A stretch of DNA of 64,000 nucleotides from Gracilaria domingensis (lineage: Eukaryota; Rhodophyta; Florideophyceae; Gracilariales; Gracilariaceae). This document shows, one piece after another, positions 4,806-52,462 of the stretch. The stretch spans positions 248,001-312,000 of the forward strand of contig VCMS01000038.1 in assembly GCA_022539475.1 (NCBI GenBank), written 5' to 3'. Within the stretch, counting starts at the first letter, position 1; each line of letters starts with the position of its first letter. The position numbers and the translations under genes were made by a program. A model generated the notes under the pieces. That model searched no databases, was not told the origin of the DNA, and saw only the letters and a list, made by a program, of their open reading frames with translations.

Positions 4806-5445
4806 GTTCCAACAAACTGTCTGGTACAGGTTCGGATGCGGTTCAAGAATAATTTTCATGCCTCCAAAACGGTTGTGCAGCCCAACACAAGCCAGGACAC
4901 TGTACGCATATCTTGTAGTGGTTGTACAGAAGTAAAAAAAGTGCGTCACTTACACACCTACTGCTGTAACTACTTGGAAAACTTTCTGCAAAGGACAAGA
5001 AAATCTCTCTTTGGCGTCTGCGAAAATGGGATTTTTCGGATGGCTCCACTGCTCATAACGCCGTCAGCAATACAAAGGACCCAGACGTACAGAGTCCAAC
5101 TCCGTCGTCTCCGGAGGTGGCGTTGCATCTTTTACGGTCTTTATCTCTACAGAGTTTTACAGTCAGGATTAATTCCACTCCTTAACATGTTATTTGTAAA
5201 GTACAAAACTGTTGCTCAAATCAGCAAGCAGCAAGCTCTGCTGTTTTTTAGCTTTACCTGCTTTTAGTGGGCTCGTATTATTTTATTTTTGTGCATCTTG
5301 CGAGTCTATGGGCAGGGAAGGCGTTGTAGCGTTAATTTAGTTAATAACTGATGTTACGGAAGGTGGAATCGATAATAATTCCGTGATAGAAGGCGTTGGA
5401 AGCCGGTGATGTTTCCTTCAAGTGGCGTGTGAGAACTAGTTGTGA
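4806..5445. other. Intergenic, nothing recognised
   Basis: It contains the putative 5' region of the DUF6818 gene and AT-rich sequence up to the E1 target duplication. A plus-strand frame of 163 codons (4776-5267) runs antisense to the DUF6818 start and has no family resemblance. Confidence 0.4.
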
Positions 5446-5450
5446 GGACA

Positions 5451-6842
5451 TGTGGACGCCATTTTGGGGGAAACAGCGCGGGTGGTGACAAACCCAAGGA
5501 GAGCGACACAATAAATGCTCGATAGTACCAGCCCAAAAGGGGCGACAAGTTAACGTAGCTCAGATGCCTGCAGGAGCAGACAAGATAACCCCAAGATAGT
5601 AAAAACTCTCCGCTAACAGGAAACGGGGAGAGTAATTAAACGAGAGCGTGGTTCGGCGTTCGATGCCGAACGACAACACAACGACAGAATGCAGCGCAAA
5701 CAGACCAACGCATCAAGGCTGTCGGCGGAACAGTAGAATCAGCAGGGCTCAGGGGTTCGGTCCTGTTGTCGATACCACCATAAACCTAGTAACCAGGCGA
5801 GGTGACGACAGAAAGGGAACCAGTGCGATGCGTACCACTGCCAACGTCCGTCCGAGGGAACGGGAATGTAGATATGATCGCAATATGCGGACGGGCCCAA
5901 TGAAGGGCAGCACAAGGCGACTGAGTAGGGAACGGTGGGAGACCGGGCCGCCGGGAATAAGGAAATGTAGGGGGAAAGGTTGGTGGCAGGGAGGCGCAGA
6001 CTGCGCTGAGGGAAGGTGGGATTGCCAAAGGAAGGAAGAAAGGCGAGAGAGGCAAGGATGGGAGGGGGTCGTCGAGGGGGGAAGTGGTCTGCCCGAGTCG
6101 AAATGGCTGAGAAGTCTTGGACTCGGAGGTTTATATCTACACTGGTGATGCTTCGTATACCCTAAGTTCTAGCATGATCTTCTTGTTGTCTCAAAAACCT
6201 AGTGTTGCTCACCATTTCCACAGTGGGTAGTGATGTTAACGTACGGTTCTTCGTTATGTTGGCTGGTGGTTGGCCAGTGATGATATGTTGTTAGGTCCTG
6301 AACCAGTTTCGTAGGTCATATTCGTGTTCCATATAATGCCATGATGTTCGGTCTCAATATCTCATTATGTTGATTTGTGGTTGTCTATTGTTCTCGTGGC
6401 ATCTTACTACTCTCTTTCTCATCCGCTTATCTTTTTAGGTCGCATCGGTATCATCTTCAGTTTCAGGCACGCCGCAGCGCACGGCGCGCAACTTCATCGC
6501 CCTCTGCCTCAGGCGCGCCGCAGCACGCGGCGCGCGACTTCATTGTTCTCGTCCTCATGCGCGCCGCAGCGCGCGGCGCGCGACCTCATTATCCTCATTG
6601 GCGCGCCACGGCGCGCGGCGCCCAGCTTCCTTCTCTTTGACGCCACGCCGCGGCGCGCGACCTCATCATCTTCGGCGGCGCGCCGCGGCGCGAGGCGCGT
6701 AGCAGTGAGCGCAGACGGGGCGGCGACGGGCGCAGTTCAGGGGTGCAGGGTGATTTTATCTCCGGAGCAATCTCCGAAGATAAGAAAATCTTTTGGCCGT
6801 GTCCAAGGAAGTGCGGGACACTCCCTTGGAACTGCCTCCACA
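5451..6842 (-). repeat. 3' LTR of E1 (1392 bp)
   Basis: This matches 13908-15200 over its length except for extra GC-rich repeat units at about 6460-6700, which make it about 100 bp longer. The ends are TGTGGA...TCCACA, an inverted terminal match. The segment 5481-5500 (GGTGGTGACAAACCCAAGGA) is identical in the LTRs of E2. Confidence 0.92.
6460..6700. repeat. GC-palindrome minisatellite inside the E1 LTR
   Basis: About five degenerate units of roughly 45-50 bp each contain a near-palindrome such as GCGCGCCGCAGCGCGCGGCG, followed by a CTTCAT or CCTCAT spacer. The partner LTR has fewer units (about 14860-15005), so the array has changed copy number since insertion or during reverse transcription. 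The Arg/Ala-rich open frames here on both strands are by-products of the repeat. Confidence 0.8.
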
Positions 6843-6858
6843 CACTCCCTCACTCAGC

Positions 6859-6890: not shown

Positions 6891-7802
6891 TTAAGAAAGC
6901 GTTGGTATTGGTCCGTCCCTTGAAACTTCTTCGGTGGTATACCTGAAGGGATATGGAGATTCTGGGTACTCAGGATCCGGTTCAAAGTCAATAGAGAACT
7001 CTTTGAAAGCCTGGATACGTCTGATGTAATCCATAACTTGCTCTTCGTGGGTAGCTGCAGGTGGTAGGTATCCGTACTTTCCGATCACGTAATGATAGAT
7101 GAAGTAGATCATCTCATCTGGGCCCAATCGGGTCATTTGCGGATGAAGCCTCCTACCCAACCGACCAAGCATCACATGCGAGTGCTGGGTAAAGTACTGA
7201 CCGTAGATAAGGTAAATGCTTAAACAGAGGTGAAAGAAATTCCACACGATGCGATGCTTTTCCCAGTCTTCACAATCAAGTATCGAGAGCCAGTCTTCGA
7301 GCTTGCGCCCGCCAATCTCCATTTGCAGATAGTTCACGTCTTCATTGTAGACTTCGTAGTCAACAGTTATTGGCATTGCAAGAAGAGCCGGCGTTATTGG
7401 TATGGTGTCTTCAATCTGGAGTGGAGGAGGTACGTCACCGCGATCTTGATCATATCCCAGATCGATCTCGAAAGCCTCTCCAGCTTCAATCCGTTGCAGG
7501 AAGCTCGACACTTCAACTTTATAGGTTCGTTGTGAGAGAAGATGTCCGTGACGTGCAACTACAAAGTGATAGTAGTAAAAGACAAACTGCTGATCCACGA
7601 GCGGTATGATGAAAGGATCCATCCTTCCCGTCAATGAGACGAGCTTAGCAAGAAGGCCTTCTGTTATGTAGGGCCCGTGGCGTTTGAACGCTCCTAAGTA
7701 GACGTGTAGGAGGTTCCATGTAATCTTCTGTAGATCGTTTGTACTCGTGCTGACAGGGGAAAGCCATTCAGAAAGTCTCAATCCACCCACAATTATCCTC
7801 AT
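6891..7802 (-). CDS. Extra ORF after integrase in E1, two copies of a new helical domain
   Basis: This is an intact 303-residue ORF between integrase and the 3' LTR, the place where some Ty3 elements carry env or accessory genes. I recognise no family. The protein has no signal peptide and no clear membrane anchor, so it is not an obvious envelope protein. Residues 6-115 and 164-273 are clearly related to each other. Both start GG-x-x-L-x-x-WL, continue with a W-N-x-x-H helix and a F-x-Y-x-Y-H/HYV-x-x-x-x-G-x-L core, and end with RI-x-A-x-E-F-x-I-D. The linker is acidic and Pro-rich. It begins 75 bp after the Pol stop in the same frame, so it may have been expressed by readthrough, reinitiation or splicing. 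It is undamaged although gag and pol are broken. Confidence 0.75.
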   Translation of the reverse strand: MRIIVGGLRLSEWLSPVSTSTNDLQKITWNLLHVYLGAFKRHGPYITEGLLAKLVSLTGRMDPFIIPLVDQQFVFYYYHFVVARHGHLLSQRTYKVEVSSFLQRIEAGEAFEIDLGYDQDRGDVPPPLQIEDTIPITPALLAMPITVDYEVYNEDVNYLQMEIGGRKLEDWLSILDCEDWEKHRIVWNFFHLCLSIYLIYGQYFTQHSHVMLGRLGRRLHPQMTRLGPDEMIYFIYHYVIGKYGYLPPAATHEEQVMDYIRRIQAFKEFSIDFEPDPEYPESPYPFRYTTEEVSRDGPIPTLS

Positions 7803-7877
7803 TTAATCAGCAGGGGGTCTGGTTGTGTTTGGACCCTCTTGTAGCACGACCGGACATGCCGCTTCGGGCCAATTATT

Positions 7878-10800
7878 TCATTCATGTCGTACTGTTCTAG
7901 GGATCAGATGCCTTGGTCTAGAACGGTAAGGTCGTAAGCGTCTCGCATGAATGCCCCTTCTCGACATACGTCGGTGTGGAGAAACCAATATGTACCAAGG
8001 ATGATTGGCCCGAACGACGTGGCATGGTCCATAAAACTTTGATTTGAATGATGGCCATTTCACCGAAGGATTAAGGGCTTCACCACGCATTACCAGTACC
8101 TGGTCTCCAACAGCGAACCGATGTCCACGGCGCTCATCGTCTTGACGGTGAGGCTGCTGCAATACCCTTGTGGCCCTCCCAAGAGTGGAGGCTTTTAGTT
8201 CCAACTCACGATGATCAAGTGACGCCGTGACTATCAGGGAAGTAGGATCTGATGGATGCATTCGGGGCCGTACTCCATACATGAGCTGAAATGGAGAATA
8301 TCCTTCGGCCATTTGTCGACTGCGATAACCATAGAGAACCTCCGGAAGTACTTCATCCCAATCAGAGTTCTGATCGTGAATCGTTTTCGCGATCGCCCTC
8401 TTGATCGTCCCAATCATTATTTCTGCGCGTCCATTAGACATAGGTGCATATGCGAGCACCGGTTTGAGAGTGATATCATGACGCATTAGATAAGCTTGGA
8501 CAGTTGACGCGAGAAAGGAGGTAGCGTTATCGGAGACAATCGTGCGGGGATAGCCGAAGGCTGTGATGATCTCCCTTCTAATAAAGTTGACTATGTCGAC
8601 TGCAGTAGAAGTTCGAGTCGCCACTGCGATCGGCCATCTCGTGAGGTGCTCGACCCCAATGAGCAAGAATCGGTTTCCGTTCCTCGTCACCCTGAGGGGT
8701 CCGGCAAAATCAATTGAAAACGTGTGGAAGATATCCGTCAGCGGGGCTCGTTGCCCCGCTCGGCGAGCAAGAAAAGATCCCATGAACTGGCAGCCATCAC
8801 AACTCTTGACGTAGGTTGTGACATCAGAGTGAATATTGGGCCACCAGAATCGATCAATGAGGTGCCTCCTGGTTGCCCTGACATTCCAGTGTCCCACATC
8901 GTCATGCAATGTTTTCAAGAGTTTACGCCTTTCATTGACGTGAGGAAGGAGCCGTAGCCCGAACCCCATTCTGCGATACAATTGCCCATTCCACACTGTG
9001 AACTTCTTAGAATTTCTTTTGATCGCCCCTCTGAGGCTCGAGTTGGGCTCATCGACCGGAAGGTCACTCAGATATCGACCGATATATGCATAGTAAGGTT
9101 CGAGGCCTGAGAAAGCTTCGCATGCAGGGGAAGAAATAGTAGTCGCCACCTCCAGAGCATGATGTACCCTTATCGTGGAGTAGCGAGAAAGATAATCAGC
9201 AGCGCAATTCTTATCCCCTGAGCGGTACACAACCTCGAACTCGTATTCAGCTAGGAAATCGAGCCACCTGGCCAATCGCCCATGTACATCCTTCTTCTGA
9301 AATGCATACTTCAGCGCCTGATGGTCTGTAATCAATTGAAATGGCTTTGATCCAAGGAGGTATAGCCGAAATTTCTTGAACGCGAAGATGACAGCAAGCG
9401 CCTCCTGCTCACAGACCGCGTAGTTCCTTTCAGCTGCTGTCATAGTCCGGCTGGCATACTGAATTGGGTGAAACATGCCATCAGATTTCTTCTGAGCGAG
9501 AACGGCGCCCAACGCAAATGAAGAAGCATCGGTTTCGACCCGAAACGGGTTGTCGAAATCGGGAAAGGCCAACACTGGAGGACTGGTTAGCTTCTCCTTC
9601 AGGTCTTTGAAGGCTTCAACCATCTCATTGTTGAACACTAGTTTCCGATTTCCGGACGTTGCTGCATGGAGAACTGCCGAAGTTTTGGCAAAGTGCTTGA
9701 TAAACCGGCGGTAGTAGCCAGCAAGCCCAAGAAAGCTCCTCAGTTCAGTGGTTGCCTTAGGGATCGGAGCCGCCTTGATGGCCTCTATTTTCTTCGCGTC
9801 CACTGCAACTCCGCTCTGGTCGACAACCTGTCCGAGCAGTTCAATCTTGGGATGGGCAAAGTCGCACTTAGAGATCTTCAGCTTCAACCCATGGGAGGCA
9901 ATTGTTTTTAGTACTAACTTGATGTGCTCGACGTGATCCTCTAAGGTTTTTTAATAGATAACCACGTCGTCCAGATAGACCCTTACAAACGGATACTTGT
10001 TGAGGATAGAGTCCATCATTCTTTGGAATGTAGAGGGGGCGTTCATCAAGCCGAAGGGCATGACCTCAAACAGATAGGTTCCTTGACGGCAAACGAAGGT
10101 GGTCATCTCCTTACACCGAGGTGACATTCTGATCTGCCAGTATCCGGAGAAGAGGTCAAGCGCAGTGAAGAACGAACAGCCGCCCAAGTCATCAAAGGTT
10201 TGTTCAATATGAGGTAAGGGCCATCTGTCCGCTTTCATAACTTGGTTCAGAGCTCGGTAGTCCACACAGAACCTTGGCTTGCCATCCTTTTTGGTCGCAA
10301 TGACGATCGGAAAGGACCATGCCGATGTACAGGGTTTGATTATTCCAGCGTCAAGCATCTTGCCGAGTTTTTTCTTGACGACTTCATTATGTCGCGGCGG
10401 AAGCCTACGAACTCTTGAGTGTATCGGAGTCTGGGTCGTCAGTGAGAACTCATGCATGACTGATACATCCGCCGGTCGAAGATCATACAGAGACCAGGCG
10501 ACCACACCAAGGTCAAGTAAAACACGAAGTAGTTCCTGTTGCTCCCCGCTGGGCAAGTGTGAGAGCCTTTTGAGGATGACTTCTTCGTGACTCGTGTCAG
10601 GAGGGTAATCTCTTCGATCCAATGTACGACCCTTGCCATCAATAGCGACCGGATCTAACAGGGAGTATTCGATCTCAGGAGCGAGACACGCAACCGTCGG
10701 CTCACTATCACGTGAACTAGAGTGTCCTTCACCAGAGCCAGTTGTACGCGGCTCTGTTTGCGAGGGGTCGGGTTGATCTTCCAACTCTCTAACAGGTGGT

Positions 10801-12002
10801 GGGGGGACCTGCGTCGAGAACTCTTCTTGAGGAAGCTCCTCCTCGAAAGCAATCACGTAACGGCCATTATCATCCTCCTCCAGTAGCCCGGTACGACCAA
10901 AAGGCATGTTCTGCACGCCGAGGTGAGGGAGTTGCGCTGAAGTGAGTACAGGGTACCGAATCTGGACACGAACCAAAAGAAAGTCGCTGATAAGTTCCCC
11001 TTCTTCAGGTGGTAGCAAAGTGACCTCGTCCGTAATCGGGATGGTGAGGACAGGGTCGCGGTAGAGAGGGGTACCAGACAGCTCGACTTCTTCTGGTGAG
11101 TAACCATCTTCATCTTCCTCATGATCATCTTCATTTCCATTCTTCGCCACTCCCTCTTCTACTTCTACTTCTACACAATCTTCATCTTCTTCGCCGTCCC
11201 TTCCAGAGTTCTTCTCTTCATCTTTTCCATCATTGCCAGATGACAAAAGGGGAGGATCAGGTGGTTGAAGGCTAGTGTCTGTCATGAAACTCTGAAAAGA
11301 CGAGGGATTTGGGACGTGATAGACCGAGTGGCGGTGATCGTCATTCGGCTCAGCTAGACCGCTCAGCTGGTTATCGGCCTCATCGTTGCTGTGGTCAAGA
11401 CTTATAACCATGACATGGTCTTCATGAGCTTCACTTTGCGATGGAACCGCAAAGGGTTCTTCATCAGCCGGTGCAGGTATAGGCCAGCCTACTCCGAAAC
11501 GGACTATTGGTTCGGAACTGTTGTCCAGCTCTAGGACACCCATTTCTGCGTACGGAAGTTCGGAAGTGTGAGGGTGGAGTTGGTCTCCGTCAGTTGGCTG
11601 AGGATAACGACGGTAGACTCGAAAGATAAGATAATCAGGTTGGCGTCTCATATCTTCGGCTCGTAGAAGAACAACGTCATCCCTGACTGGGACAACGAGA
11701 TCGCGTTCATGCTCTTCATCTGATGAAGAGCCTCCGGAGTCGTCGTCGTCTGCACTTTCCTCCGATTCTTCACCGTTCTCAAATTCTCTATTTGCTTCCC
11801 CAGGGGCGTGAGGAGTAGTAATAGCAGGTTCCGGCTCAACATCATTCACATTCAATTGTCTCATACCTTCCTCCAAATCCTGAGGATCAGCAGGGGAGGG
11901 GCTTTCCTGACCGATACTCGTAGCACCAATATTCTCCAGTTCGTTCGCGGATTCCTCTTCGGGTGGTTGTAAGTAGTTTTGTTCTTCATTCATAGTATTC
12001 AA
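7878..12002 (-). pseudogene. pol: E1 Pol: duplicated linker module, RT, RNase H, integrase; one in-frame stop
   Basis: This frame makes the element's DNA copy and inserts it. It has one internal stop, TAA at 9951-9953, where the family normally has a residue just after RT YLDDVVIY. Before the stop are 683 codons: an acidic N-terminal region with two related modules (residues 102-176 and 317-390), then RT with FCVDYRALNQ, LDLFSGYWQ and YLDD (676-679). After it, numbering from 9887, come RNase H (D120, TDHQ near 188), the integrase zinc site (H328, H333, C363, C366) and the integrase triad D393, D453, E489. Domain order and residues are typical of Ty3/gypsy. All active-site residues are present, so the stop looks recent. 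The duplicated modules are not standard gypsy domains. Confidence 0.9.
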
Positions 12003-12763: not shown

Positions 12764-13919
12764 CTAGTCCTTGTCGACTTTTTCGGAGGGCCTTTGGCTT
12801 GCTGAGAAGCAGTCCGGGGGGTGTGGGATTCGGGAAACATTACAGGAGAAATCCCTGAGAGGGCCAGTTCGCGGTTGCTTGGGCAGAGGCTCCCCTTCCG
12901 AGTCTCTTTTTGCGGTGGTAACGGGATCTTCATCATCTGAAGGGTCAGCAATCACAACTGAGACTTGGTTCCCACCTGTGTTCTGGGAACCTCGTTTCTC
13001 ACTCAGCAACTTCTCTTTCTCCGGTTCGGATTTCACACCTTCAAATGCAACTTTTCGCACAACATCAATGTTATTCTTCCTCCAGCACGTAGCTGTAGAG
13101 TGACCTAACTTGCCGCAATTACCACATCGTGTGCCTCGATGTGGATTAAGCTCACAACGTGCCGCAAAGGGACCAGGTTGGCTGCAATACGAACAAACTT
13201 TTTCCGTATCCTGACGTCCGGTGGCAGTCGCAGCGCTCTGAGTCTTCTTCACCAGGAGGTGCAACTGTGCCATCTGGTCAGCCAACTGATCCACTTTCGA
13301 CTCCAGCGGAATTGGACGAGCGGGCTCCTTAGCACGTTGAAGTATATGCTTCGCCAGTGGGAAAGCGTTAAGGGTACCATACGATCCAAGAGCTTTCTTT
13401 CCGCCGACAAAGTCCTTAACGAGGGCCTTCAAGGATTCATAGTCATCTGCTCCACGGAATATGACAAACAAGATCTGCAAACTCCATGACAGCGTTTCGT
13501 AGTAACCCGAACTTAGCTTTCGAGTTAAAACCTGCCTGATCGAATAAAGAGTCCATCTTCTTCAGGGACCCTAGCAGATCGACGTAATCTAAACGCGCCG
13601 AAACTGCACGGCGAATCCTGTCCGCCGGTTCTTCGATTGCACCGAAACGTTCGATCAAAGCGAACTTCACCTTCTGATAGTCCTTTGCTTCAATCGAAAG
13701 AGAGCCATCAGCAGCATAGTTGTCATAGTAGAAGTCAAACGCTTCACCCTCGAGATAGCCGAGCAACTTCATAGCCCGAACACTATCCTCTTCGTTGGGA
13801 ATAGCGACATTCTCAAAGTAAAACAGAAACTTCCTTACGTCGACAGCAGAACCATCCAAGGAAATCACACCAGATTCAGGAGAGCCAGGCCCTCCTCGAG
13901 AGTACCATGTGGACGTCAT
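12764..13919 (-). pseudogene. gag: E1 Gag with CCHC knuckle, frameshifted
   Basis: The capsid precursor starts at the ATG at 13919, twelve bases inside the LTR, and reads across the primer-binding site (residues WYSRGG). A capsid-like helical region (FYFENVAIP, EAFDFYYDNY, LLGSLKKMDSL) runs to about 13470. There the frame breaks: one extra base separates it from the continuation FRGADDYESLKALVKDFVGG. The second part has a canonical CX2CX4HX4C knuckle (CGNCGKLGHSTATC) preceded by a degenerate one (CSYCSQ...). The E2 Gag aligns across the break in a single frame, which supports a one-base mutation and not programmed frameshifting. Confidence 0.85.
13888..13907 (-). other. Putative primer-binding site of E1
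   Basis: Immediately after the 5' LTR the element strand reads TGGTACTCTCGAGGAGGG; the plus strand here is GGCCCTCCTCGAGAGTACCA. Starting with TGG fits pairing with a tRNA 3' CCA. The same 20 bases follow the E2 LTRs. The implied tRNA acceptor end (CGAGAGTACCA) is one I cannot assign to an amino acid. Confidence 0.6.
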
Positions 13920-15200
13920 TTTTGGGGGAAACAGCGCGGGTGGTGACAAACCCAAGGAGAGCGACACAATAAATGCTCGAGACTACCAGATCAAAAGGGG
14001 CGACAAGTTAACGTAGCTCAGATGCCTGCAGGAACAGACAAGATAACCCCAAGATAGTAGAAACTCTCCGCTAACAGGAAGCGAGGAGAGTAATTAAACG
14101 AGAACGTGGTTCGGCGTTCGATGCCGAATGACAACACAACGACAGAATGCAGCGCCAACAGACCAACACACCAAGGCTGTCGGCGGAACAGTAGAATCAG
14201 CAGGGCTCAGGGGTTCGGTCCTGTTGTCGATACCACCATAAACCTAGTAATCAGGCGAGGTGACGACAGAAAGGGAACCAGTGCGATGCGTACCACTGCC
14301 AACGTCCGTCCGAGGGAACGGGAATGTAGATATGATCGCAATATGCGGACGGGCCCAATGAAGGGCAGCACAAGGCGACTGAGTAGGGAACGGTGGGAGA
14401 CCGGGCCGCCGGGAATAAGGAAATGTAGGGAGAAAGGTTGGTGGCAGGGAGGCGCAGACTGCGCTGAGGGAAGGTGGGATTGCCAAAGGAAGGAAGAAAG
14501 GCGAGAGAGGCAAGGATGGGAGGGGGTCGTCGAGGGGGGAAGTGGTCTGCCCGAGTCGAAATGGCTGAGAAGTCTTGGACTCGGAGGTTTATATCTACAC
14601 TGGTGATGCTTCGTATACCCTAAGTTCTAGCATGATCTTCTTGTTGTCTCAAAAACCTAGTGTTGCTCACCATTTCCACAGTGGGTAGTGATGTTAACGT
14701 ACGGTTCTTCGTTATGTTGGCTGGTGGTTGGCCAGTGATGATATGTTGTTAGGTCTTGAACCGATTTGGTAGGTTTTATTCGTGTTCCATATAATGACAT
14801 GATGTTCTGTTGCAATATCTCATCATGTGAATTGGTGTTATTCTATTGTTATCGTTCTCATGCGCGCCGCAGCAGCCGGCGCGCGACTTCATCGTTCTTA
14901 GGCGCCCAGCAGTACGCGGCGCGCACCCTTCTTTTTTCTGCCGCTGCGCCAAAGCGCGCGACCTCATCATCTTCGGCGGCGCGCCGCGGCGCGAGGCGCG
15001 TAGCATTGAGCGCAGACGGAGCGGCAGACGCACGGCCGCGACGGGGTGGCAGACGCATGGCAGCGAGCGCGGACGGGGCGGCGACGGACACAGTTCAGGG
15101 GTGGAGGGTGATTTTATCTCCGGAACGATCTCCGGAGATAAAAAAATCTTTTGGCCGTTTCCAAGGTAGTGCGGGACACTCCCATGGAATTGCGTCTACA
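13908..15200 (-). repeat. 5' LTR of E1 (1293 bp)
   Basis: This is the partner of 5451-6842. It holds the promoter end of the minus-strand element and the Gag start codon (13919). It is followed by the target duplication GGACA at 15201-15205 and has fewer GC-palindrome units than the other LTR. Confidence 0.92.
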
Positions 15201-15205
15201 GGACA

Positions 15206-17750: not shown

Positions 17751-19967
17751 TCAAAGCGAACTCATTTGTAGACAGCAGTAGTGTCCAAGCAGATAAGAAG
17801 AAGCAAGCATAAACCGATAGAATGATGAAGAGCAGTGAATAAACGAATGAAGTAGCTGAATCCATTGAGCGATAATGATCAACCATACGAGCTTCTGGTT
17901 TGCGGTAAGGAACGGATTAACTGAGCATACAGAAGATTTCTTCCGGTGAGGGAAGAGACGAAGGTTCACTCGAACCGCAAATTGCAACCGGCGACGAAGA
18001 ATGTGCGAAGTGCGTTCCGATAGCTTCTTTTGACGATCGTTCCTGACAGACACATGACGATTAACAACCAACTTGAATGACTTGGTGCACAACGCTCGTA
18101 CCGGCTTTTTCTCGTAGACTTTTCCACGCTCTGGTGGGCAACTGAGATATTCATAACAAGCAGAAACGTGACTTGATATCCTGTACTTCTTCTTGATAAA
18201 ATCATCGCATATGCTGAAGAGAGTGAAAGACCAGGCAACCATACACTTGGTGAGTAGTGCACTAAGTAACCACTTCTGCATAGCTGTGGAAAACTGAAAC
18301 GGCTTTTGGATACGACTCTCATGTCTAACACGGCACGGAAGATAGTAGAAATGGTGAATCCTCCCTCCATTTTTCTCCCATGCTGTAGGATTCAAGAGAG
18401 GGTACTTGATGTGCGCGGCCAGACGTACGGCCTTTAGACCACAGTCGGAGCAAGAAGAAAGCTCGGATCCTGATTCATGCTGCAAAGAAGAATGATCATT
18501 GTCTTCATGCTTCGCCGAAAGAACTTCTGACTGAATTTCTAGATTCCCGATCTCTGTGAGAGCTGCCAGAGTACTTCCGGATTCACTTTCAAGATTCTCG
18601 AAGACTCCGCTGCAACTGCCTTCTTCATTTCGTTCAGAACGACTAGGTGGAAAGTTATCACTGAAAATCCATGACACTTTAGACTGAGTCTCATGTAAAG
18701 CAACATTGACCATTCTGACAAACTCTTTGTTGAACTTGGGTTTGGCAAAGTGATCCTGCATTCGCATCTTCTTCACTCTCAACTTTTTCTTCTTTACGAG
18801 GCTCTTTTGAATAGTCGCAACAAGGCCCAGAGCATTTTCAGGATATGGATCCTGCTTCTCTTCAATCTTCGTCTCCAATGAAACAACTGGAGAAGCACTG
18901 GAAACCTGAGGTCCACAAAGCTGCTCAGGTAAAAGTATCTCATCGACATCTCGCTTCGTGGTGAGATCTGGGTGATGCTCGTCGAAAGATCCAGTAGCAA
19001 TGGCTGACAAAGCACCTTCTTGTGACTTCTGGTGAGCATCACTGTCCCTTGGAGTCTCTGATACAGATGTCATTTCTTCCGGAGAACAATTGCGGCTGGG
19101 GTCCTCCGTCGACGCCGACCACTTTCGACACGTCTCAAGAACATGAAAAACTTTTCCACACCCATCAACTTGAGTGTCATGGGCTGTTTTCGACCCAAAG
19201 CTTCTCGAATGACCAACAGGCAGTTGAATGTGTGAAGAAAGTCTCTCTTCATCTTGGTCAACCACTGCTGGTTGTGACTTCGTAACCAGTATATGAGGCT
19301 CTTCAACTTCAGCCACCAGCGAATCAATTTTATCATCAGTCGGCACAGTGTTTGTGGAAGAAACCTGTTCCGACTGCTGCGAAATCTGTGGCGAGGGAAG
19401 GCCACTCGGAATGCTGCGTGATTCCCAAGAGTTCTTCCCGACTACGAAAGCTTTCACTAGTCTCTTCAAAGCCTCATAGTCATCGGCACCACGATAGAAA
19501 ACAAACTCAGCAAGCTCGATATGTTCACCAACAGCATTGCCGAGCAATGCAAACTTAGCTTCACTGTCGAGACCTGCTTCTTCGAGCAACAATTCCATCT
19601 TCTTCAAGGATCCTAACATGTCGGCACTATCGAGTCGCACCGACACTGTTTCGTGCGCAATTTTTTTTGGCTCTTCAACAACCCCAAAGTGGTCGATGAA
19701 GGCAGCCTTAACTTCTTCATAGTCCTCTGCTTCATCAGATAGGGAACCATCAATAACATACCAATCGTAGAAGAAGTCAAACGCTTCTCTCCGTAGGTAT
19801 CGCAACAATTTGGCAGCCCGATCAACATTCTTGACCTCAGGTGCCAACACATTCTCAAAGTGTAGGAAGAACTTCTTAACATCACAAGAAGACCCATCAA
19901 AATACATGATTCTGGAGGAAGCAGACGAAAGAACAGGCCCTCCTCGAGAGTACCATGTAAACGTCAT
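17751..19967 (-). CDS. gag: E2 Gag-like protein fused to a relic of the pre-RT region (unit 1)
   Basis: The 738-residue frame starts at the ATG at 19967, exactly twelve bases inside the LTR, and encodes WYSRGG through the primer-binding site. Residues 1-200 align with E1 Gag (FDGSSCDVKKFFLHFENV, EAFDFFYDWY, MLGSLKKMELLLEEAG, YRGADDYEALKRLV). No CCHC knuckle survives. The region after about residue 530 weakly follows the segment just ahead of RT in E1 Pol (KYPLLNP, CMVAWS, a Pro-rich turn, then Lys-rich sequence), and then becomes hydrophobic and unrelated. The simplest reading is an internal deletion that removed protease and pol and kept one long open frame. The open frame extends upstream to 20051 in the LTR (SLGLSPPA), a stretch also readable in E1. 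Confidence 0.8.
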   Translation of the reverse strand: MTFTWYSRGGPVLSSASSRIMYFDGSSCDVKKFFLHFENVLAPEVKNVDRAAKLLRYLRREAFDFFYDWYVIDGSLSDEAEDYEEVKAAFIDHFGVVEEPKKIAHETVSVRLDSADMLGSLKKMELLLEEAGLDSEAKFALLGNAVGEHIELAEFVFYRGADDYEALKRLVKAFVVGKNSWESRSIPSGLPSPQISQQSEQVSSTNTVPTDDKIDSLVAEVEEPHILVTKSQPAVVDQDEERLSSHIQLPVGHSRSFGSKTAHDTQVDGCGKVFHVLETCRKWSASTEDPSRNCSPEEMTSVSETPRDSDAHQKSQEGALSAIATGSFDEHHPDLTTKRDVDEILLPEQLCGPQVSSASPVVSLETKIEEKQDPYPENALGLVATIQKSLVKKKKLRVKKMRMQDHFAKPKFNKEFVRMVNVALHETQSKVSWIFSDNFPPSRSERNEEGSCSGVFENLESESGSTLAALTEIGNLEIQSEVLSAKHEDNDHSSLQHESGSELSSCSDCGLKAVRLAAHIKYPLLNPTAWEKNGGRIHHFYYLPCRVRHESRIQKPFQFSTAMQKWLLSALLTKCMVAWSFTLFSICDDFIKKKYRISSHVSACYEYLSCPPERGKVYEKKPVRALCTKSFKLVVNRHVSVRNDRQKKLSERTSHILRRRLQFAVRVNLRLFPHRKKSSVCSVNPFLTANQKLVWLIIIAQWIQLLHSFIHCSSSFYRFMLASSYLLGHYCCLQMSSL

Positions 19968-21920
19968 TTTTGTACCGAATGCGCAGAATGACGCGGGTGG
20001 TGACAAACCCAAGGAGGAGGTCGAGAGTACCAGCCTAGAAAGGCGAAACAAACCGATAAATGTAGCTCAGTGGTTTGTAAAAGAAAACAAACTGACAACC
20101 AACAGGCCTATGCCTGCAAGATTCAATGACAATGGCAAACAAGCAACAACGAACGATAAACCAAACGACCGATCTGCACGAACAAAGAAACCAAATAGTA
20201 CCAGCGTACCAACAGCACTGAACACTTCTAGATGAAAAAACCAACAATCAATACAATAAGTAGAGCTTCAAAGCGCCTACAACTCGAGGCCTAAGCAATG
20301 AGCTCCAACAACTTGACAGACAACTAGATTAGCACCAACACGTACGATCACTCTCTCGGTCACATACGCGGCGCCAACCCAACTGAAAGACAGAACACAA
20401 GCCCAATCTTAGGGCACTGTTACATAAACACTGAAGAGACGGTGATGTTCAGAACGGGAGGAACAACCTGGTAGATAGTACGGATTTTCCAGATAGACGG
20501 AGACCAAGAACAAGTAAAGCAACTCAAGCAAACCAAATACGATGATAGAGAGAAAGGCAAATCAGCAAAGCAAATGACCAGAATAAACAAACAAGAAAGC
20601 AATCATCAACAAACAACTGAAGAGTAGCGAGGGCAAACAACAATAGCCGCAGCAGTGCAATACGGGCCCATCGTAGGGCAGCACTGTGCGATACAACGGT
20701 GTCGGGGTGGGAGACCAAGCCACCCGAAGAGAACGAAAGGGAACCAAAGGAGGAAAGTTGGTGGCAGAGAAAGCACTGACTGTGCTGAAGGAAGTTGGGG
20801 ATGCCAAGGGGAAAAGATGGGCTTCACGAAGAACGGGAGTGTGGGGACGAATAATGTAGGTGGTCTGGACTTGATGATCTGGTCTTGATCGTGTGGTCTG
20901 ACTGAGATGAGATGACGGCGAGAGTGAGAAGATGAGGGTCTATATAGACAGCCACATGCTGCGGCAGCTTCCAACATTCAATATGACATGTCACCATCGG
21001 TCGTGTGATACACGAATATTAGACACGAAGTTCCATTCCAAGTATTCATGGCAGACGAATGTTCTAGTTGCCGAAACCCTAAGCCAAGAAGTTGTACTCG
21101 CCCTTCTTATTGGGTGCGGGATGCATGCCGGAGTCATTGCTGATACTAGTAGCATGTTGCGTCACACATTATGCGTTGAGGTGGAAGCAGCCAGGCTCCA
21201 TGGAGATAGACTAGGTTGAATACATCATCTTGTCATAGCCACGCTGTCTCTCAGCGGCGCTGTCCTGCGCGCATCGGCGCCGTCTATGATAGAAATTAAC
21301 GAGAGATCAATTGTGTCGCGTGGAACCACGCGCGAGATTGATGTTGTTGCGGACGTGTCGCGGCAGTGGCAGCATTCGTAGCACTTCACTAGTAGATCGT
21401 GGTGACACAGCATCATATGCGGTGTATAGGTAGCCGCATCACCATGCACTTTGCACACGGTCATAATGACAGTCTCTGTCTGATACGAGTGTAGCAGCAA
21501 AGCCAGAAAGGGCAAGCTCCAGAACAGCACCAAGCAGCGAAATCATAGCGTAACGGCAGCGGGGCGGGTGCGCTGTAGTACGGTGTCCAGGGGTGCGGCG
21601 ATGGGCGGAAAGTGAGCAACGAGTGGCGGCACCAATTGCAACAATCTTCGAGGCGGTGGTTGTGTGTGAGGCGTGCGGAAAGAGAGATGACACAGTGCTG
21701 CGCGGTCGGCGATGAGCGCAGCTGAAGCACCGCGGTCACTGTGCGGCGGCCTGTTCGGGTCGCTTCGAGACGACGGAGGGAGCGATGGTGAGCCTCTGCG
21801 CTGTCTGGTTGTGCTAAATAAGCAACCAACCCTGCAAACCCTAGTTCCAGCAGTGCACTTTGATGTACGCCGTTCCGCCTCTTTCGTGTCATTTGTGGTA
21901 CTGACGAATCCGCCTTTACA
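19956..21920 (-). repeat. E2 LTR, shared middle copy
   Basis: It acts as 5' LTR for the internal region 17630-19955 and 3' LTR for 21921-24246. It lies exactly 4291 bp from the first copy, and all compared stretches are identical. Confidence 0.92.
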
Positions 21921-22041: not shown

Positions 22042-24258
22042 TCAAAGCGAACTCATTTGTAGACAGCAGTAGTGTCCAAGCAGATAAGAAGAAGCAAGCA
22101 TAAACCGATAGAATGATGAAGAGCAGTGAATAAACGAATGAAGTAGCTGAATCCATTGAGCGATAATGATCAACCATACGAGCTTCTGGTTTGCGGTAAG
22201 GAACGGATTAACTGAGCATACAGAAGATTTCTTCCGGTGAGGGAAGAGACGAAGGTTCACTCGAACCGCAAATTGCAACCGGCGACGAAGAATGTGCGAA
22301 GTGCGTTCCGATAGCTTCTTTTGACGATCGTTCCTGACAGACACATGACGATTAACAACCAACTTGAATGACTTGGTGCACAACGCTCGTACCGGCTTTT
22401 TCTCGTAGACTTTTCCACGCTCTGGTGGGCAACTGAGATATTCATAACAAGCAGAAACGTGACTTGATATCCTGTACTTCTTCTTGATAAAATCATCGCA
22501 TATGCTGAAGAGAGTGAAAGACCAGGCAACCATACACTTGGTGAGTAGTGCACTAAGTAACCACTTCTGCATAGCTGTGGAAAACTGAAACGGCTTTTGG
22601 ATACGACTCTCATGTCTAACACGGCACGGAAGATAGTAGAAATGGTGAATCCTCCCTCCATTTTTCTCCCATGCTGTAGGATTCAAGAGAGGGTACTTGA
22701 TGTGCGCGGCCAGACGTACGGCCTTTAGACCACAGTCGGAGCAAGAAGAAAGCTCGGATCCTGATTCATGCTGCAAAGAAGAATGATCATTGTCTTCATG
22801 CTTCGCCGAAAGAACTTCTGACTGAATTTCTAGATTCCCGATCTCTGTGAGAGCTGCCAGAGTACTTCCGGATTCACTTTCAAGATTCTCGAAGACTCCG
22901 CTGCAACTGCCTTCTTCATTTCGTTCAGAACGACTAGGTGGAAAGTTATCACTGAAAATCCATGACACTTTAGACTGAGTCTCATGTAAAGCAACATTGA
23001 CCATTCTGACAAACTCTTTGTTGAACTTGGGTTTGGCAAAGTGATCCTGCATTCGCATCTTCTTCACTCTCAACTTTTTCTTCTTTACGAGGCTCTTTTG
23101 AATAGTCGCAACAAGGCCCAGAGCATTTTCAGGATATGGATCCTGCTTCTCTTCAATCTTCGTCTCCAATGAAACAACTGGAGAAGCACTGGAAACCTGA
23201 GGTCCACAAAGCTGCTCAGGTAAAAGTATCTCATCGACATCTCGCTTCGTGGTGAGATCTGGGTGATGCTCGTCGAAAGATCCAGTAGCAATGGCTGACA
23301 AAGCACCTTCTTGTGACTTCTGGTGAGCATCACTGTCCCTTGGAGTCTCTGATACAGATGTCATTTCTTCCGGAGAACAATTGCGGCTGGGGTCCTCCGT
23401 CGACGCCGACCACTTTCGACACGTCTCAAGAACATGAAAAACTTTTCCACACCCATCAACTTGAGTGTCATGGGCTGTTTTCGACCCAAAGCTTCTCGAA
23501 TGACCAACAGGCAGTTGAATGTGTGAAGAAAGTCTCTCTTCATCTTGGTCAACCACTGCTGGTTGTGACTTCGTAACCAGTATATGAGGCTCTTCAACTT
23601 CAGCCACCAGCGAATCAATTTTATCATCAGTCGGCACAGTGTTTGTGGAAGAAACCTGTTCCGACTGCTGCGAAATCTGTGGCGAGGGAAGGCCACTCGG
23701 AATGCTGCGTGATTCCCAAGAGTTCTTCCCGACTACGAAAGCTTTCACTAGTCTCTTCAAAGCCTCATAGTCATCGGCACCACGATAGAAAACAAACTCA
23801 GCAAGCTCGATATGTTCACCAACAGCATTGCCGAGCAATGCAAACTTAGCTTCACTGTCGAGACCTGCTTCTTCGAGCAACAATTCCATCTTCTTCAAGG
23901 ATCCTAACATGTCGGCACTATCGAGTCGCACCGACACTGTTTCGTGCGCAATTTTTTTTGGCTCTTCAACAACCCCAAAGTGGTCGATGAAGGCAGCCTT
24001 AACTTCTTCATAGTCCTCTGCTTCATCAGATAGGGAACCATCAATAACATACCAATCGTAGAAGAAGTCAAACGCTTCTCTCCGTAGGTATCGCAACAAT
24101 TTGGCAGCCCGATCAACATTCTTGACCTCAGGTGCCAACACATTCTCAAAGTGTAGGAAGAACTTCTTAACATCACAAGAAGACCCATCAAAATACATGA
24201 TTCTGGAGGAAGCAGACGAAAGAACAGGCCCTCCTCGAGAGTACCATGTAAACGTCAT
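22042..24258 (-). CDS. gag: E2 Gag-like protein (unit 2)
   Basis: The translation is identical to the product at 17751-19967, with the same start twelve bases inside the LTR (LTR start 24247). With no difference from unit 1, the duplication is very young, or gene conversion or assembly has made the copies identical. Confidence 0.8.
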   Translation of the reverse strand: MTFTWYSRGGPVLSSASSRIMYFDGSSCDVKKFFLHFENVLAPEVKNVDRAAKLLRYLRREAFDFFYDWYVIDGSLSDEAEDYEEVKAAFIDHFGVVEEPKKIAHETVSVRLDSADMLGSLKKMELLLEEAGLDSEAKFALLGNAVGEHIELAEFVFYRGADDYEALKRLVKAFVVGKNSWESRSIPSGLPSPQISQQSEQVSSTNTVPTDDKIDSLVAEVEEPHILVTKSQPAVVDQDEERLSSHIQLPVGHSRSFGSKTAHDTQVDGCGKVFHVLETCRKWSASTEDPSRNCSPEEMTSVSETPRDSDAHQKSQEGALSAIATGSFDEHHPDLTTKRDVDEILLPEQLCGPQVSSASPVVSLETKIEEKQDPYPENALGLVATIQKSLVKKKKLRVKKMRMQDHFAKPKFNKEFVRMVNVALHETQSKVSWIFSDNFPPSRSERNEEGSCSGVFENLESESGSTLAALTEIGNLEIQSEVLSAKHEDNDHSSLQHESGSELSSCSDCGLKAVRLAAHIKYPLLNPTAWEKNGGRIHHFYYLPCRVRHESRIQKPFQFSTAMQKWLLSALLTKCMVAWSFTLFSICDDFIKKKYRISSHVSACYEYLSCPPERGKVYEKKPVRALCTKSFKLVVNRHVSVRNDRQKKLSERTSHILRRRLQFAVRVNLRLFPHRKKSSVCSVNPFLTANQKLVWLIIIAQWIQLLHSFIHCSSSFYRFMLASSYLLGHYCCLQMSSL

Positions 24259-26211
24259 TTTTGTACCGAATGCGCAGAATGACGCGGGTGGTGACAAACC
24301 CAAGGAGGAGGTCGAGAGTACCAGCCTAGAAAGGCGAAACAAACCGATAAATGTAGCTCAGTGGTTTGTAAAAGAAAACAAACTGACAACCAACAGGCCT
24401 ATGCCTGCAAGATTCAATGACAATGGCAAACAAGCAACAACGAACGATAAACCAAACGACCGATCTGCACGAACAAAGAAACCAAATAGTACCAGCGTAC
24501 CAACAGCACTGAACACTTCTAGATGAAAAAACCAACAATCAATACAATAAGTAGAGCTTCAAAGCGCCTACAACTCGAGGCCTAAGCAATGAGCTCCAAC
24601 AACTTGACAGACAACTAGATTAGCACCAACACGTACGATCACTCTCTCGGTCACATACGCGGCGCCAACCCAACTGAAAGACAGAACACAAGCCCAATCT
24701 TAGGGCACTGTTACATAAACACTGAAGAGACGGTGATGTTCAGAACGGGAGGAACAACCTGGTAGATAGTACGGATTTTCCAGATAGACGGAGACCAAGA
24801 ACAAGTAAAGCAACTCAAGCAAACCAAATACGATGATAGAGAGAAAGGCAAATCAGCAAAGCAAATGACCAGAATAAACAAACAAGAAAGCAATCATCAA
24901 CAAACAACTGAAGAGTAGCGAGGGCAAACAACAATAGCCGCAGCAGTGCAATACGGGCCCATCGTAGGGCAGCACTGTGCGATACAACGGTGTCGGGGTG
25001 GGAGACCAAGCCACCCGAAGAGAACGAAAGGGAACCAAAGGAGGAAAGTTGGTGGCAGAGAAAGCACTGACTGTGCTGAAGGAAGTTGGGGATGCCAAGG
25101 GGAAAAGATGGGCTTCACGAAGAACGGGAGTGTGGGGACGAATAATGTAGGTGGTCTGGACTTGATGATCTGGTCTTGATCGTGTGGTCTGACTGAGATG
25201 AGATGACGGCGAGAGTGAGAAGATGAGGGTCTATATAGACAGCCACATGCTGCGGCAGCTTCCAACATTCAATATGACATGTCACCATCGGTCGTGTGAT
25301 ACACGAATATTAGACACGAAGTTCCATTCCAAGTATTCATGGCAGACGAATGTTCTAGTTGCCGAAACCCTAAGCCAAGAAGTTGTACTCGCCCTTCTTA
25401 TTGGGTGCGGGATGCATGCCGGAGTCATTGCTGATACTAGTAGCATGTTGCGTCACACATTATGCGTTGAGGTGGAAGCAGCCAGGCTCCATGGAGATAG
25501 ACTAGGTTGAATACATCATCTTGTCATAGCCACGCTGTCTCTCAGCGGCGCTGTCCTGCGCGCATCGGCGCCGTCTATGATAGAAATTAACGAGAGATCA
25601 ATTGTGTCGCGTGGAACCACGCGCGAGATTGATGTTGTTGCGGACGTGTCGCGGCAGTGGCAGCATTCGTAGCACTTCACTAGTAGATCGTGGTGACACA
25701 GCATCATATGCGGTGTATAGGTAGCCGCATCACCATGCACTTTGCACACGGTCATAATGACAGTCTCTGTCTGATACGAGTGTAGCAGCAAAGCCAGAAA
25801 GGGCAAGCTCCAGAACAGCACCAAGCAGCGAAATCATAGCGTAACGGCAGCGGGGCGGGTGCGCTGTAGTACGGTGTCCAGGGGTGCGGCGATGGGCGGA
25901 AAGTGAGCAACGAGTGGCGGCACCAATTGCAACAATCTTCGAGGCGGTGGTTGTGTGTGAGGCGTGCGGAAAGAGAGATGACACAGTGCTGCGCGGTCGG
26001 CGATGAGCGCAGCTGAAGCACCGCGGTCACTGTGCGGCGGCCTGTTCGGGTCGCTTCGAGACGACGGAGGGAGCGATGGTGAGCCTCTGCGCTGTCTGGT
26101 TGTGCTAAATAAGCAACCAACCCTGCAAACCCTAGTTCCAGCAGTGCACTTTGATGTACGCCGTTCCGCCTCTTTCGTGTCATTTGTGGTACTGACGAAT
26201 CCGCCTTTACA
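24247..26211 (-). repeat. E2 LTR, third copy
   Basis: The outermost 5' LTR of the array on the element strand. It ends CCTTTACA at 26211 and is followed by GTTTC, which nearly matches the GTTCC before the first LTR. Confidence 0.92.
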
Positions 26212-49124: not shown

Positions 49125-49811
49125 GTTGACGTCGGGACCTGAGGGTCGTACCGAGGAGGTATAGGACTAGATTACGAAGTGATCCGACTCTGTATAGAGT
49201 TTTGCCGTGTTTACGGAAACCCGTGCATTACCGTTGGAGGATCTCGCCCCGCTCCGGGCACAGTGCCGAGGAGGCCCTACCCGTCGCGTGTGGGTGTTGT
49301 TTGGTTGTTGCTTTCTGCTGCTTTCCCTCTCGGGACTACACCTGTCGTTGGTCGTGTTTCATCGTTGCCGATACCACCCCATCTCTGGAGTTTCTCATCG
49401 TTTCCTCACGACGTGGCCTAGCACCTCTGTAGGTATAGCCAGTTGCCACTTCGGCCTTACAATCGAGTTACGGTGGTACAGAGGGCTCTGTCACTGGTCT
49501 GCCATCTCTCACGAGAGCGGACCTTCGGACAGTCTGGTGGGTTTCACTCTTCCGAGTTTGCCCCACAAAGTGGTCTCCCGACTTAGAACCGTTTTAAGTC
49601 ACTGTCGTGGAATTGACTTGATTGTTGACGGATCACCGTTGTCTGACAACGATCAGGGGACTCTTTAGAGTTTTGGAGGTTGACAACTTTTGAACGTGAA
49701 CCGCTGACGTGGTGGTTTACCGAGAAGGTTTATTGAGTTTTCTTGTTCTTTGGAGACTCGTGTACGAGTTTAAATGGATCATCTGGATCAGATTGCTTAC
49801 TGGTTTTCAGT

Positions 49812-51881
49812 ATGCCGCAACCGCCTCGAGGTTCTCGAGCTGGTTCCGCGCGGTCGTCAGCTGCGGTTCTACCCGTTGCACCGACGTCCCGGTCTATCCC
49901 AGATGAGGCGCAACCTCTTGAGGTCGTACCCCGCCCCCGGAGAACGCGTTCAGTTACAGAAGCACCCAAGGGAAATGTGGGTTCTGCTCAACCCGTCGTT
50001 GAGACACCATCCATGGTTAATCCTAACGCTGCTACCGTAGCCGAGTTGGCTAGGTTGGAATCCCGCTTGGATATTAATCACGCTGCTCACGTGGAACTCC
50101 TACAGGATGTTACCTCGTTGAGGACGCAGGTTGATAATGCCCAGGTGAGGGATGTCTCAGGAGACTTACGTCTTCTGAGAAGGGACGTGAATTCCATTAT
50201 GGAAAATCTGGGTACCCCAGACGTCTTCGTCACGGAGTACCGGGCATTTGTCGAGGAAATGCGCACCGATATCGGTCGAATTCGTTCGCGCTTGGAAACG
50301 CTGGAGGATACAATCCGTATGGATGAAGCTGTGGACGCACAGGTTCCTCAAGGAAATCCATCTGCGGATGAAGACCATCGTTCGGTGAAGCAGAAACGTC
50401 GACACCCAAGACGAGTTCACTATGATTCGGATTCATCGCGCTCTGACTCGAGCGGCATGACTGAAGACAGTTCGTCAGATTCATCTGATAGTGATGACAA
50501 CCGTCATAGGTCACGTTCGACACGGTCGAAAGCGACGCAGTCTACTCAGGCAGTGATGAGATCACGCGTGAAAGGACGGCGCCACTTAGGACTCAAAGAG
50601 TTAAAGCCGACGGACCCGCTCTACACAAAGCTGTTGTCGTACCGCTATTATCGGTTGGAAGATGTTACTTCGAATCGCTCCTCGCGAGGAACCGGTAAAG
50701 TGAAGGACTACATTCGAAGGTTGAATGTTACCCTTGAAACAAGGAAGTTCTCGGGGACAGATCGTATCCTTATCTTGGATTTCCTTGCCAGGTTCGTCCA
50801 GGAGGCCAATATACTCGGTATGAGTGAAGCACAGGCATATGTGGCACTGCCGTACTTCCTAACAGGGACTGCGGAAGATCAGTACAACTCAGTTCGAGGA
50901 ACCTCGAGAGCCTCGGAAGAAGGAGTCACGTGTTGGCCGGAAGCCGTGAACTACCTTCTCAGGTCGTACGCGACTTCCAACGCGATTTACAGCGCTACTC
51001 TTGCTGTTCGCGAGACTAGACAGAAGAGTGGAGAATCTGAAACGGTTTATTCAACGCGGTTGAACAAAGCGTTTCACCGATGTGGTAATGTGTATTCCGC
51101 ACAGGAGCGGTGTACCATGCTTGTTGATGGTTTGGACCCCACCACTCGGTCGTTGGTCGCTCGCCGACGCGAGGAAAAACGACGAATGACGTACCTAGAG
51201 TTGGTTAATTACGCCCAGGCGGAAGGAGAGACGTATCGAGCCCGCAACCCGGGGCAGCGCCGCTCGAAAGCGCTACTCGCGGAGAGTTCGTCACGATCGA
51301 TGTCGGTTTTGCGACGTGAAACCACTGTCGGTGATGCTGATAACGTCCACTTCATCGGAAGTAATCCCGATTCTTACGGATCTACGGACCTGCCGTCAAC
51401 CTCGATTCCGAGCACGGAAGAAGACCCCGCATTGTATGCCCAAGGTGTCCCGGTGCCTGCAGCCCCGCTGCCTTACGCTAACAATTCATCGCGTCTGAAC
51501 CGTCCAGGGTGGAAGGACACAGCACCACAACGTCGAGTGGACAATCGCCCTCGCGACAAACCGGCCTCGGTCATATGTTACCAGTGCTACCTTCCAGGTC
51601 ACGTATCGACGCAGTGCGTATTTCCGCCGTCGCACAGGCCAAAAATTATTGCGTATTACGACGCCCTCACGCCCGAGGAAAAGGAATCTGCTCCACGAAA
51701 GGAATATGATAAGGCCAGAGCTGAACTGGGATTACCGGTTCCGGTCTATGCTCAGCCCTCCGTTCCGGCACAGGCACCTTCGAACCAGGTTCAAGGCGAA
51801 GTACCCACGCATGGGATTCAGTTAGGCTCCCTGAACGGAGTTCACGCACCGAATTCGGTGAGCCCCGTTCAGAAAAACTGA
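49812..51881 (+). CDS. gag: E4 Gag with CCHC knuckle
   Basis: About 689 residues, intact. I chose the Met at 49812 (MPQPPRGSRAGS) over the more upstream Met at 49743, because the 23 codons between read like leader. An N-terminal Ser/Pro/Arg region and a helical coiled segment (LARLESRLDINHAAHVELLQ) come first. A Ser/Asp-rich linker follows, then the retrotransposon Gag core (YIRRLNVTLETRKFSGTDRI, AQAYVALPYFLTGTAEDQYN, TRLNKAFHRCGNVYSAQERC). The knuckle CYQCYLPGHVSTQC (CX2CX4HX4C) binds the RNA genome. Gag's open frame contrasts with the broken pol downstream. Confidence 0.85.
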   Translation: MPQPPRGSRAGSARSSAAVLPVAPTSRSIPDEAQPLEVVPRPRRTRSVTEAPKGNVGSAQPVVETPSMVNPNAATVAELARLESRLDINHAAHVELLQDVTSLRTQVDNAQVRDVSGDLRLLRRDVNSIMENLGTPDVFVTEYRAFVEEMRTDIGRIRSRLETLEDTIRMDEAVDAQVPQGNPSADEDHRSVKQKRRHPRRVHYDSDSSRSDSSGMTEDSSSDSSDSDDNRHRSRSTRSKATQSTQAVMRSRVKGRRHLGLKELKPTDPLYTKLLSYRYYRLEDVTSNRSSRGTGKVKDYIRRLNVTLETRKFSGTDRILILDFLARFVQEANILGMSEAQAYVALPYFLTGTAEDQYNSVRGTSRASEEGVTCWPEAVNYLLRSYATSNAIYSATLAVRETRQKSGESETVYSTRLNKAFHRCGNVYSAQERCTMLVDGLDPTTRSLVARRREEKRRMTYLELVNYAQAEGETYRARNPGQRRSKALLAESSSRSMSVLRRETTVGDADNVHFIGSNPDSYGSTDLPSTSIPSTEEDPALYAQGVPVPAAPLPYANNSSRLNRPGWKDTAPQRRVDNRPRDKPASVICYQCYLPGHVSTQCVFPPSHRPKIIAYYDALTPEEKESAPRKEYDKARAELGLPVPVYAQPSVPAQAPSNQVQGEVPTHGIQLGSLNGVHAPNSVSPVQKN

Positions 51882-52078
51882 CTTCGGGAGTTTCCCCTAC
51901 GGGAGGGGCGCCTTCCGAGCCAAAGTTGAAGGCGCCCGAGGCGTCACAGCTTCGCTCTCCAGCTGTTAGAATCCTTTCAAGGATAGCGGCTACAACTGAC
52001 GTGAGCTCAGAACACCTTTTGGTTCTACGTCGTCCGTAGATACGGTCCCGTAATCTCCGTATTCCGGAAAGAGTTCTT

Positions 52079-52462
52079 GTGATGGCCAAGAGAAACTACA
52101 AAGTTTATGCCGATCTTGGCTTTTCTAACCAGTTCATGGTTCGACAGTTGTCTGTGCTGGATACAGGAGCTGCACCGAACCTGATTCACCTTGAGTTGGT
52201 GCCACCCGCGCTACGGGATGAAATTCGTCATGGTCCAGGTTTGGACATCGCGGATGCCAACAATAACACGTTGCGTACTCTTGGGTACATACCTCTCATG
52301 GTACGATTAGGAACCTGTATGGTTAAAGTGGATTTCATGGTTTCCAAAAGCATTGCCGCACCGGTGATACTCGGTTGTGACTTTTGTGACCGTTTTGTTG
52401 AAGCGATTCGACCTCGAGCTCAGTTGTTACCATGGATGATGGTTCCGAAATACCGATTGTAA
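52079..52462 (+). CDS. E4 aspartic protease
   Basis: LSVLDTGAAPNLI is the retropepsin D-T-G active site, and APVILGCDFCDRF is the second conserved strand (I-L-G). The frame ends at 52462, overlapping the next frame by about 30 bp. That overlap could be a programmed frameshift or a mutation. There is no Met that clearly fixes its start; the 197 bp after Gag also encode Pro/Ser-rich residues. Confidence 0.75.
   Translation: MMAKRNYKVYADLGFSNQFMVRQLSVLDTGAAPNLIHLELVPPALRDEIRHGPGLDIADANNNTLRTLGYIPLMVRLGTCMVKVDFMVSKSIAAPVILGCDFCDRFVEAIRPRAQLLPWMMVPKYRL

Follow-up and report, generated by a model that had tools for sequence, protein, structure and literature searches.

Modules that end Ty3/gypsy integrases can decide where the elements land, and to our knowledge few types of such end modules have been described. 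Chromoviruses are recognised by a chromodomain at the integrase C-terminus. Sense additional ORFs located between pol and the 3' LTR are named aORF-3S, as summarised in PMC7264820, and domain capture by Ty3/gypsy elements is illustrated, in the outline given in PMC9289625, by an orchid ORF for a 2-ODD m6A demethylase. The window, which is the whole stretch of 64,000 nucleotides of Gracilaria domingensis DNA analysed here, contains a retrotransposon whose polyprotein ends in a real, conserved and undescribed domain, which is found in a known kind of place. In the open-access literature searched, no publication on this tail domain was noticed.

The window element and its polyprotein tail

The element lies on the reverse strand and has the following features:

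5451..6842, (-): 3' LTR, which ends in GTCCACA, with TGTCC adjoining at 5446-5450
6845..6855, (-): presumed PPT, a purine-rich tract next to the 3' LTR, read by eye
6891..7802, (-): tail ORF, the last 303 codons of the polyprotein frame, with two homologous domains
6909..7376, (-): domain 2 (dom2) with the N-terminal MPxxVDY segment, 156 aa
7407..7799, (-): domain 1 (dom1), 131 aa, aligned with relatives
7803..7880, (-): linker between integrase and tail, with in-frame stops TAA (7803-7805) and TGA (7878-7880) in the window copy
7878..9887, (-): downstream pol piece with RNase H (PF17917), integrase H2C2 (PF17921) and the rve core; we take its end to be GPY/F-like
9951..12002, (-): upstream pol piece, which ends inside reverse transcriptase (RT, PF00078)
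12764..13967, (-): putative gag region, assigned by position, with two ORFs of different phase
13908..15200, (-): 5' LTR, with TGTCC adjoining at 15201-15205

The element is a Ty3/gypsy LTR retrotransposon, as its domain order and its two LTRs with a target-site duplication show. The RT, RNase H, H2C2 and rve domains are all present in the two window pol pieces, which share the same phase and are separated by a stop at 9951-9953. The rve core of the downstream piece scores 31.8 bits, just under the cut-off of 32.6, and this domain is slightly under the cut-off in the window family (E1) and in groups B and E, which are described below. The PR-RT-RH-IN order is complete in the polyproteins of L034 and L047, one from group B and one from group E, where a single domain directly follows it. 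The window pol pieces scanned gave no match to a protease family, and the profile search matched no gag family in the putative gag region, which gave a weak zinc-finger match (E=0.0033). The two LTRs align over 950 bp at 96.3% and over 358 bp at 71.8%, and the duplication TGTCC flanks both. The presumed gag-start ATG sits within the last bases of the 5' LTR (window 13880-13940 and 5421-5480), so the presumed primer-binding site, read by eye, would fall in coding sequence.

Translation of the ORF at 6891-7802 (-) gives the 303-residue product reported in the initial annotation. Its residues 6-115 had been paired with residues 164-273, and the pairing stands, since residues 1-129 align gap-free to residues 159-287; the Smith-Waterman self-alignment of the tail scores 185, while 2000 shuffles average 29.0 (SD 4.8) and never exceed 55. 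The domain has about 130-150 residues and its secondary structure, predicted at low confidence, is mainly alpha-helical. The tail had also been described as intact in a broken element, and indeed no stop falls within either domain, whereas the pol phase is interrupted at 9951-9953, 7878-7880 and 7803-7805 and the gag region is split over two phases. Hydropathy agrees with the reported lack of a membrane anchor, the Kyte-Doolittle 19-residue maximum of the window tail being 1.16. In a tblastn search of the window with 17 domain sequences, the convincing matches are solely to dom1 and dom2 themselves.

The description of the tail as an extra ORF after the integrase did not survive. Copies were sought in the source genome (77.9 Mb, 680 contigs); of 306 candidates, 130 were scored, and the 30 best-scoring matches were taken with 1.5-kb flanks. 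This sample is biased towards good copies, and the window copy is one of the 30. When the linker is read in the frame of the tail, 28 of the 30 have no stop in it; one of the 28 (L022) is visibly out of frame there. The two copies with linker stops are L014 and that of the window. At the position of the window's ATG, a methionine is missing in all 29 other copies. The integrase end and at least 342 subsequent residues share one open frame in 21 of the 30; among the other nine, the frame ends within the tail in four, and no joint frame was found in five, including the window copy. Ten two-domain matches lie within stop-free frames of 2363-2401 aa, which, judging from this length, would span gag to tail; the longest of them, C8, has a shifted stretch in dom1. 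The phase shared with pol, the stop-free linkers and the joint frames thus turn the supposed extra ORF into a polyprotein tail. This tail forms the C-terminal module of the gag-pol polyprotein in a Ty3/gypsy element, directly after the integrase, and two stops cut it off in the window copy.

Two other features of the window are recorded here. A second Ty3/gypsy-like element, recognised by its translations, lies at 49743-55602 (+) and gave no convincing match to the 17 domain sequences in tblastn. At 17751-20051 and 22042-24342, 4291 bp apart, lie two ORFs of 766 aa that are identical and have a start resembling gag. No pol ORF was noticed with them, and perhaps they are a non-autonomous relative in tandem.

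Distribution, selection and exchange of the domain

The genome search confirms that the domain is present in many copies of E1. Group B (9 loci, L031-L039) and group E (6 loci, L043-L048) have one domain after the integrase, and integrase end and domain share one frame in all 10 of these 15 loci that were examined. Counts from the further genome searches, in which 150 candidates were scored of 349, 359, 313 and 326, are lower bounds. With the Chromo profile (PF00385), neither the pol nor the tail of the window element gave a match at E<=1, and L007, L034 and L047, which represent the fused families, gave none at E<=0.1; no chromodomain was detected at the integrase C-terminus of the window family.

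A different arrangement is found in chromovirus-like elements. C98 has a 946-aa frame with RT, RNase H and integrase, then a frame break, and then a chromodomain (PF00385, E=1e-10, over the cut-off). The chromodomain frame and a separate domain ORF of 154 aa overlap at the stop of the former and the ATG of the latter, and a purine tract (by eye) lies just 3' of that ORF. This element is itself broken between integrase and chromodomain. C152 is like C98, with a weak chromodomain frame (E=0.0031, below the cut-off), and C202 combines a chromodomain-like frame, as judged by eye, with a 154-aa domain ORF that is intact and lies in another phase. C191 is similar to these three by eye and has one stop in the domain region. 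In a chromodomain survey, in which 150 of 1207 candidates were scored, no listed domain match was seen by eye within 1.5 kb, which suggests that the strongest chromodomains of the genome lack the domain; the C98 chromodomain is outside the 150 surveyed.

Some copies are arranged in series. L055 (C179:157-166 kb) is a tandem array of at least 7 units of about 1.3 kb, each with a broken domain piece. Evenly spaced same-strand copies occur on C27 at ~111-130 kb (about 8.97 kb), on C244 at ~66-83 kb (8.03) and on C110 at 1-9 kb (8.03); these may be arrays in head-to-tail order with LTRs in common, or an effect of the assembly.

The dN/dS values, estimated by the Nei-Gojobori method, speak for purifying selection, which had been put forward as a check of the domain: both domains have values of 0.05-0.10 against L052. 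L007 and L052 give 0.03 for the integrase, 0.08 for dom1 and 0.05 for dom2 (dS 1.6-2.2), while the window copy against L052 gives 0.10 for dom1 and 0.07 for dom2. Comparison of L007 with the window copy gives 0.14 for dom1 (dS 0.48) and 0.08 for dom2, and window dom2 against group B gives 0.07. Near-identical pairs are noisy, with 0.68 on 3 changes for the integrase (L013), 0.28 on 8 changes for dom2 (L024) and, in the L002 pair, for which only the integrase is compared, 0.32 on 40 changes. dS is not computable for the integrase against groups B and E, nor for dom2 of L007 against B. Within E1 and B, these values indicate that both domains are constrained, though less strictly than the integrase to some degree. 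Values for dom2 against group E are 0.33-0.56 at saturated dS, and between E1 and E the domain dN is 0.97-0.99, with dN/dS of 0.38-0.56 at saturated dS, against an integrase dN of 0.34, so that the domain changes faster between families. The domain ORFs of C98 and C152 have a dN/dS of 0.15 at dS 0.81, while those of C98 and C202 (0.37) and of C98 and C191 (0.30) are compared near saturation.

In a tree of 17 domains, d1, d2+B, E and solo come out as coherent groups. This is not so for the three chromovirus-like rows, and L058 joins E (86/90) on long branches. The union of dom1 with dom2+B has a support of only 61/81, so that a simple internal duplication as the source of dom1 and dom2 is not established by the tree; for the order of the groups, AU p-values are 0.309 for d2+B+E and 0.322 for d1+d2+B+E.

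Among 30 copies plus L052, 272 pairs are alike (>=95%) in integrase and dom1, and in 62 of them dom2 is below 85%. Exchange of dom2 as a cassette was considered and rejected for these pairs in general, because the 3' flank also differs in 61 of the 62, and therefore mostly the whole 3' end was exchanged. The flank is alike (>=93%) in one divergent pair, L010 and L011, which have integrase, dom1 and 3' flank alike and dom2 different. L010 and L052 have dom2 and the 3' flank in common, and integrase and dom1 not.

Identity, function and origin of the domain

The claim that the duplicated domain has no known family holds in the libraries searched, which gave no env, chromodomain or integrase-tail match. 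Neither Pfam nor PHROGs has a family that matches the tail or its domains, and NCBIfam gave one match at 0.066, in one of 10 members. A single tail query against PDB sequences gave six matches at residues 188-263 (E 0.0061 to 0.52), all transaminases; the two domain profiles returned no transaminase from PDB (best 0.14 and 1.6), and the transaminase matches were judged to be chance. AlphaFold, run on the full tail with no alignment (pLDDT 36.6) and on dom2 with dom1 as its only relative (pLDDT 44.0), gave models that were too poor for a fold search in both cases. Pattern searches gave 109 and 8 matches in viral contigs and 9 in genome contigs, none of which was confirmed; these collections are without eukaryotes.

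The reading that we tentatively prefer is that of an integrase-associated accessory or tethering domain. The tail domain would work with the integrase or the pre-integration complex, and it might tether the integrase to a nuclear or chromatin factor of the host, or aid nuclear delivery. Such a partnership would account for both arrangements of the domain, as a fusion with the integrase and as a product made alongside it, and fusion in one lineage with adjacency in another is a classical sign that two proteins share a task. A limit of this reading is that the chromodomain elements have a targeting module of a known type in any case, so that the domain is not simply standing in for a chromodomain. 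Points that count against an integrase partner are the faster change of the domain between families and the broken state of C98, which is the best chromodomain example. A further one is that a polyprotein is normally cut by its own protease, and hence the C-terminal position may serve expression only. The tail, once released, could then be a free accessory protein without integrase contact, for example in anti-silencing or as an RNA or particle chaperone, and chromovirus-like elements would make it from their own ORF. The separate intact ORFs of C98, C152 and C202 and the existence of free-standing ORFs fit such a protein. Harder to reconcile with it is the frame that domain and integrase share in 21 of 30 E1 copies and in 10 of 10 group B and E loci examined; we hold a free protein to be possible at a lower level, not much less likely than an integrase partner. 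It is highly unlikely that the domain is an envelope-like third gene, as the position of the domain ORF between pol and the 3' end in chromovirus-like elements might suggest, since eight domain proteins have no strongly hydrophobic segment (highest 19-residue mean 1.46) and other families have the domain fused in frame to the integrase. Equally improbable is a meaningless open frame or decayed passenger: the window copy is broken in the gag region, RT and linker, but dN/dS of 0.05-0.15 in several comparisons with dS above 0.4 and residues common across families at 22-40% identity contradict such decay.

Capture of a host gene, once or twice, by retrotransposons concerns the origin of the domain and can be combined with either function, integrase partner or free accessory. 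Two ORF lineages of the domain, C106 and the intact C2, C405 and C454, stand alone in the flanks seen, and they would be the host family or a domesticated branch. C106 is open from ATG to stop (159 aa), and its surrounding 1.5 kb matches only itself in a genome search that skips very common words; C2 (161 aa) and C106 have a dN/dS of 0.11 at a saturated dS of 3.1, and no pol was seen by eye in 900 bp upstream and 500 bp downstream of C2. On the other side, there are three close copies of C2 (97% over 1015 bp, with 89% over the last 267) along with a broken one at 82%, which also fit a mobile or duplicated repeat, and C2 against C454 gives 0.39 on 19 changes. A candidate RT-like fragment, read by eye, lies about 2.8 kb from C106 within the 7.7 kb surveyed, and the solo branch is unrooted in the domain tree. 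We hold host capture to be possible but less likely than not, and the free-standing ORFs may also simply be stranded. A longer scenario, which we regard as rather improbable, has a domain of host origin entering at least two Ty3/gypsy lineages of this genome, at first as an overlapping ORF beside an integrase-chromodomain and then as a fused and doubled integrase tail replacing the chromodomain; it would be a second, chromodomain-independent means of steering integration, and its free-standing relatives would serve the host.

Comparison with known systems

With a conserved module that is fused, doubled or separate, one could test directly how integrases gain or exchange their partners, and the tails of several polyprotein families in the genome could be annotated. 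The domain resembles the chromodomain of chromoviruses (PF00385) in its location directly after the integrase end in the polyprotein. It differs from it in sequence, as the window pol and tail have no Chromo match and C98 carries chromodomain and this domain as different things. The orchid 2-ODD m6A demethylase ORF, as outlined in PMC9289625, is likewise an added domain retained by an element family; it is a known enzyme, whereas the tail domain matches no family searched. A separate sense ORF after pol, as in aORF-3S, is found in C98, C152 and C202 and not in the window family. These three elements share with aORF-3S, as summarised in PMC7264820, the location, the sense orientation and the lack of a known protein match, and they differ from its env-like kind, so far as that summary describes it, since the domain has no strongly hydrophobic segment. 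Another difference from aORF-3S, as summarised there, is that here the domain is also found within the integrase frame, in one or two copies.
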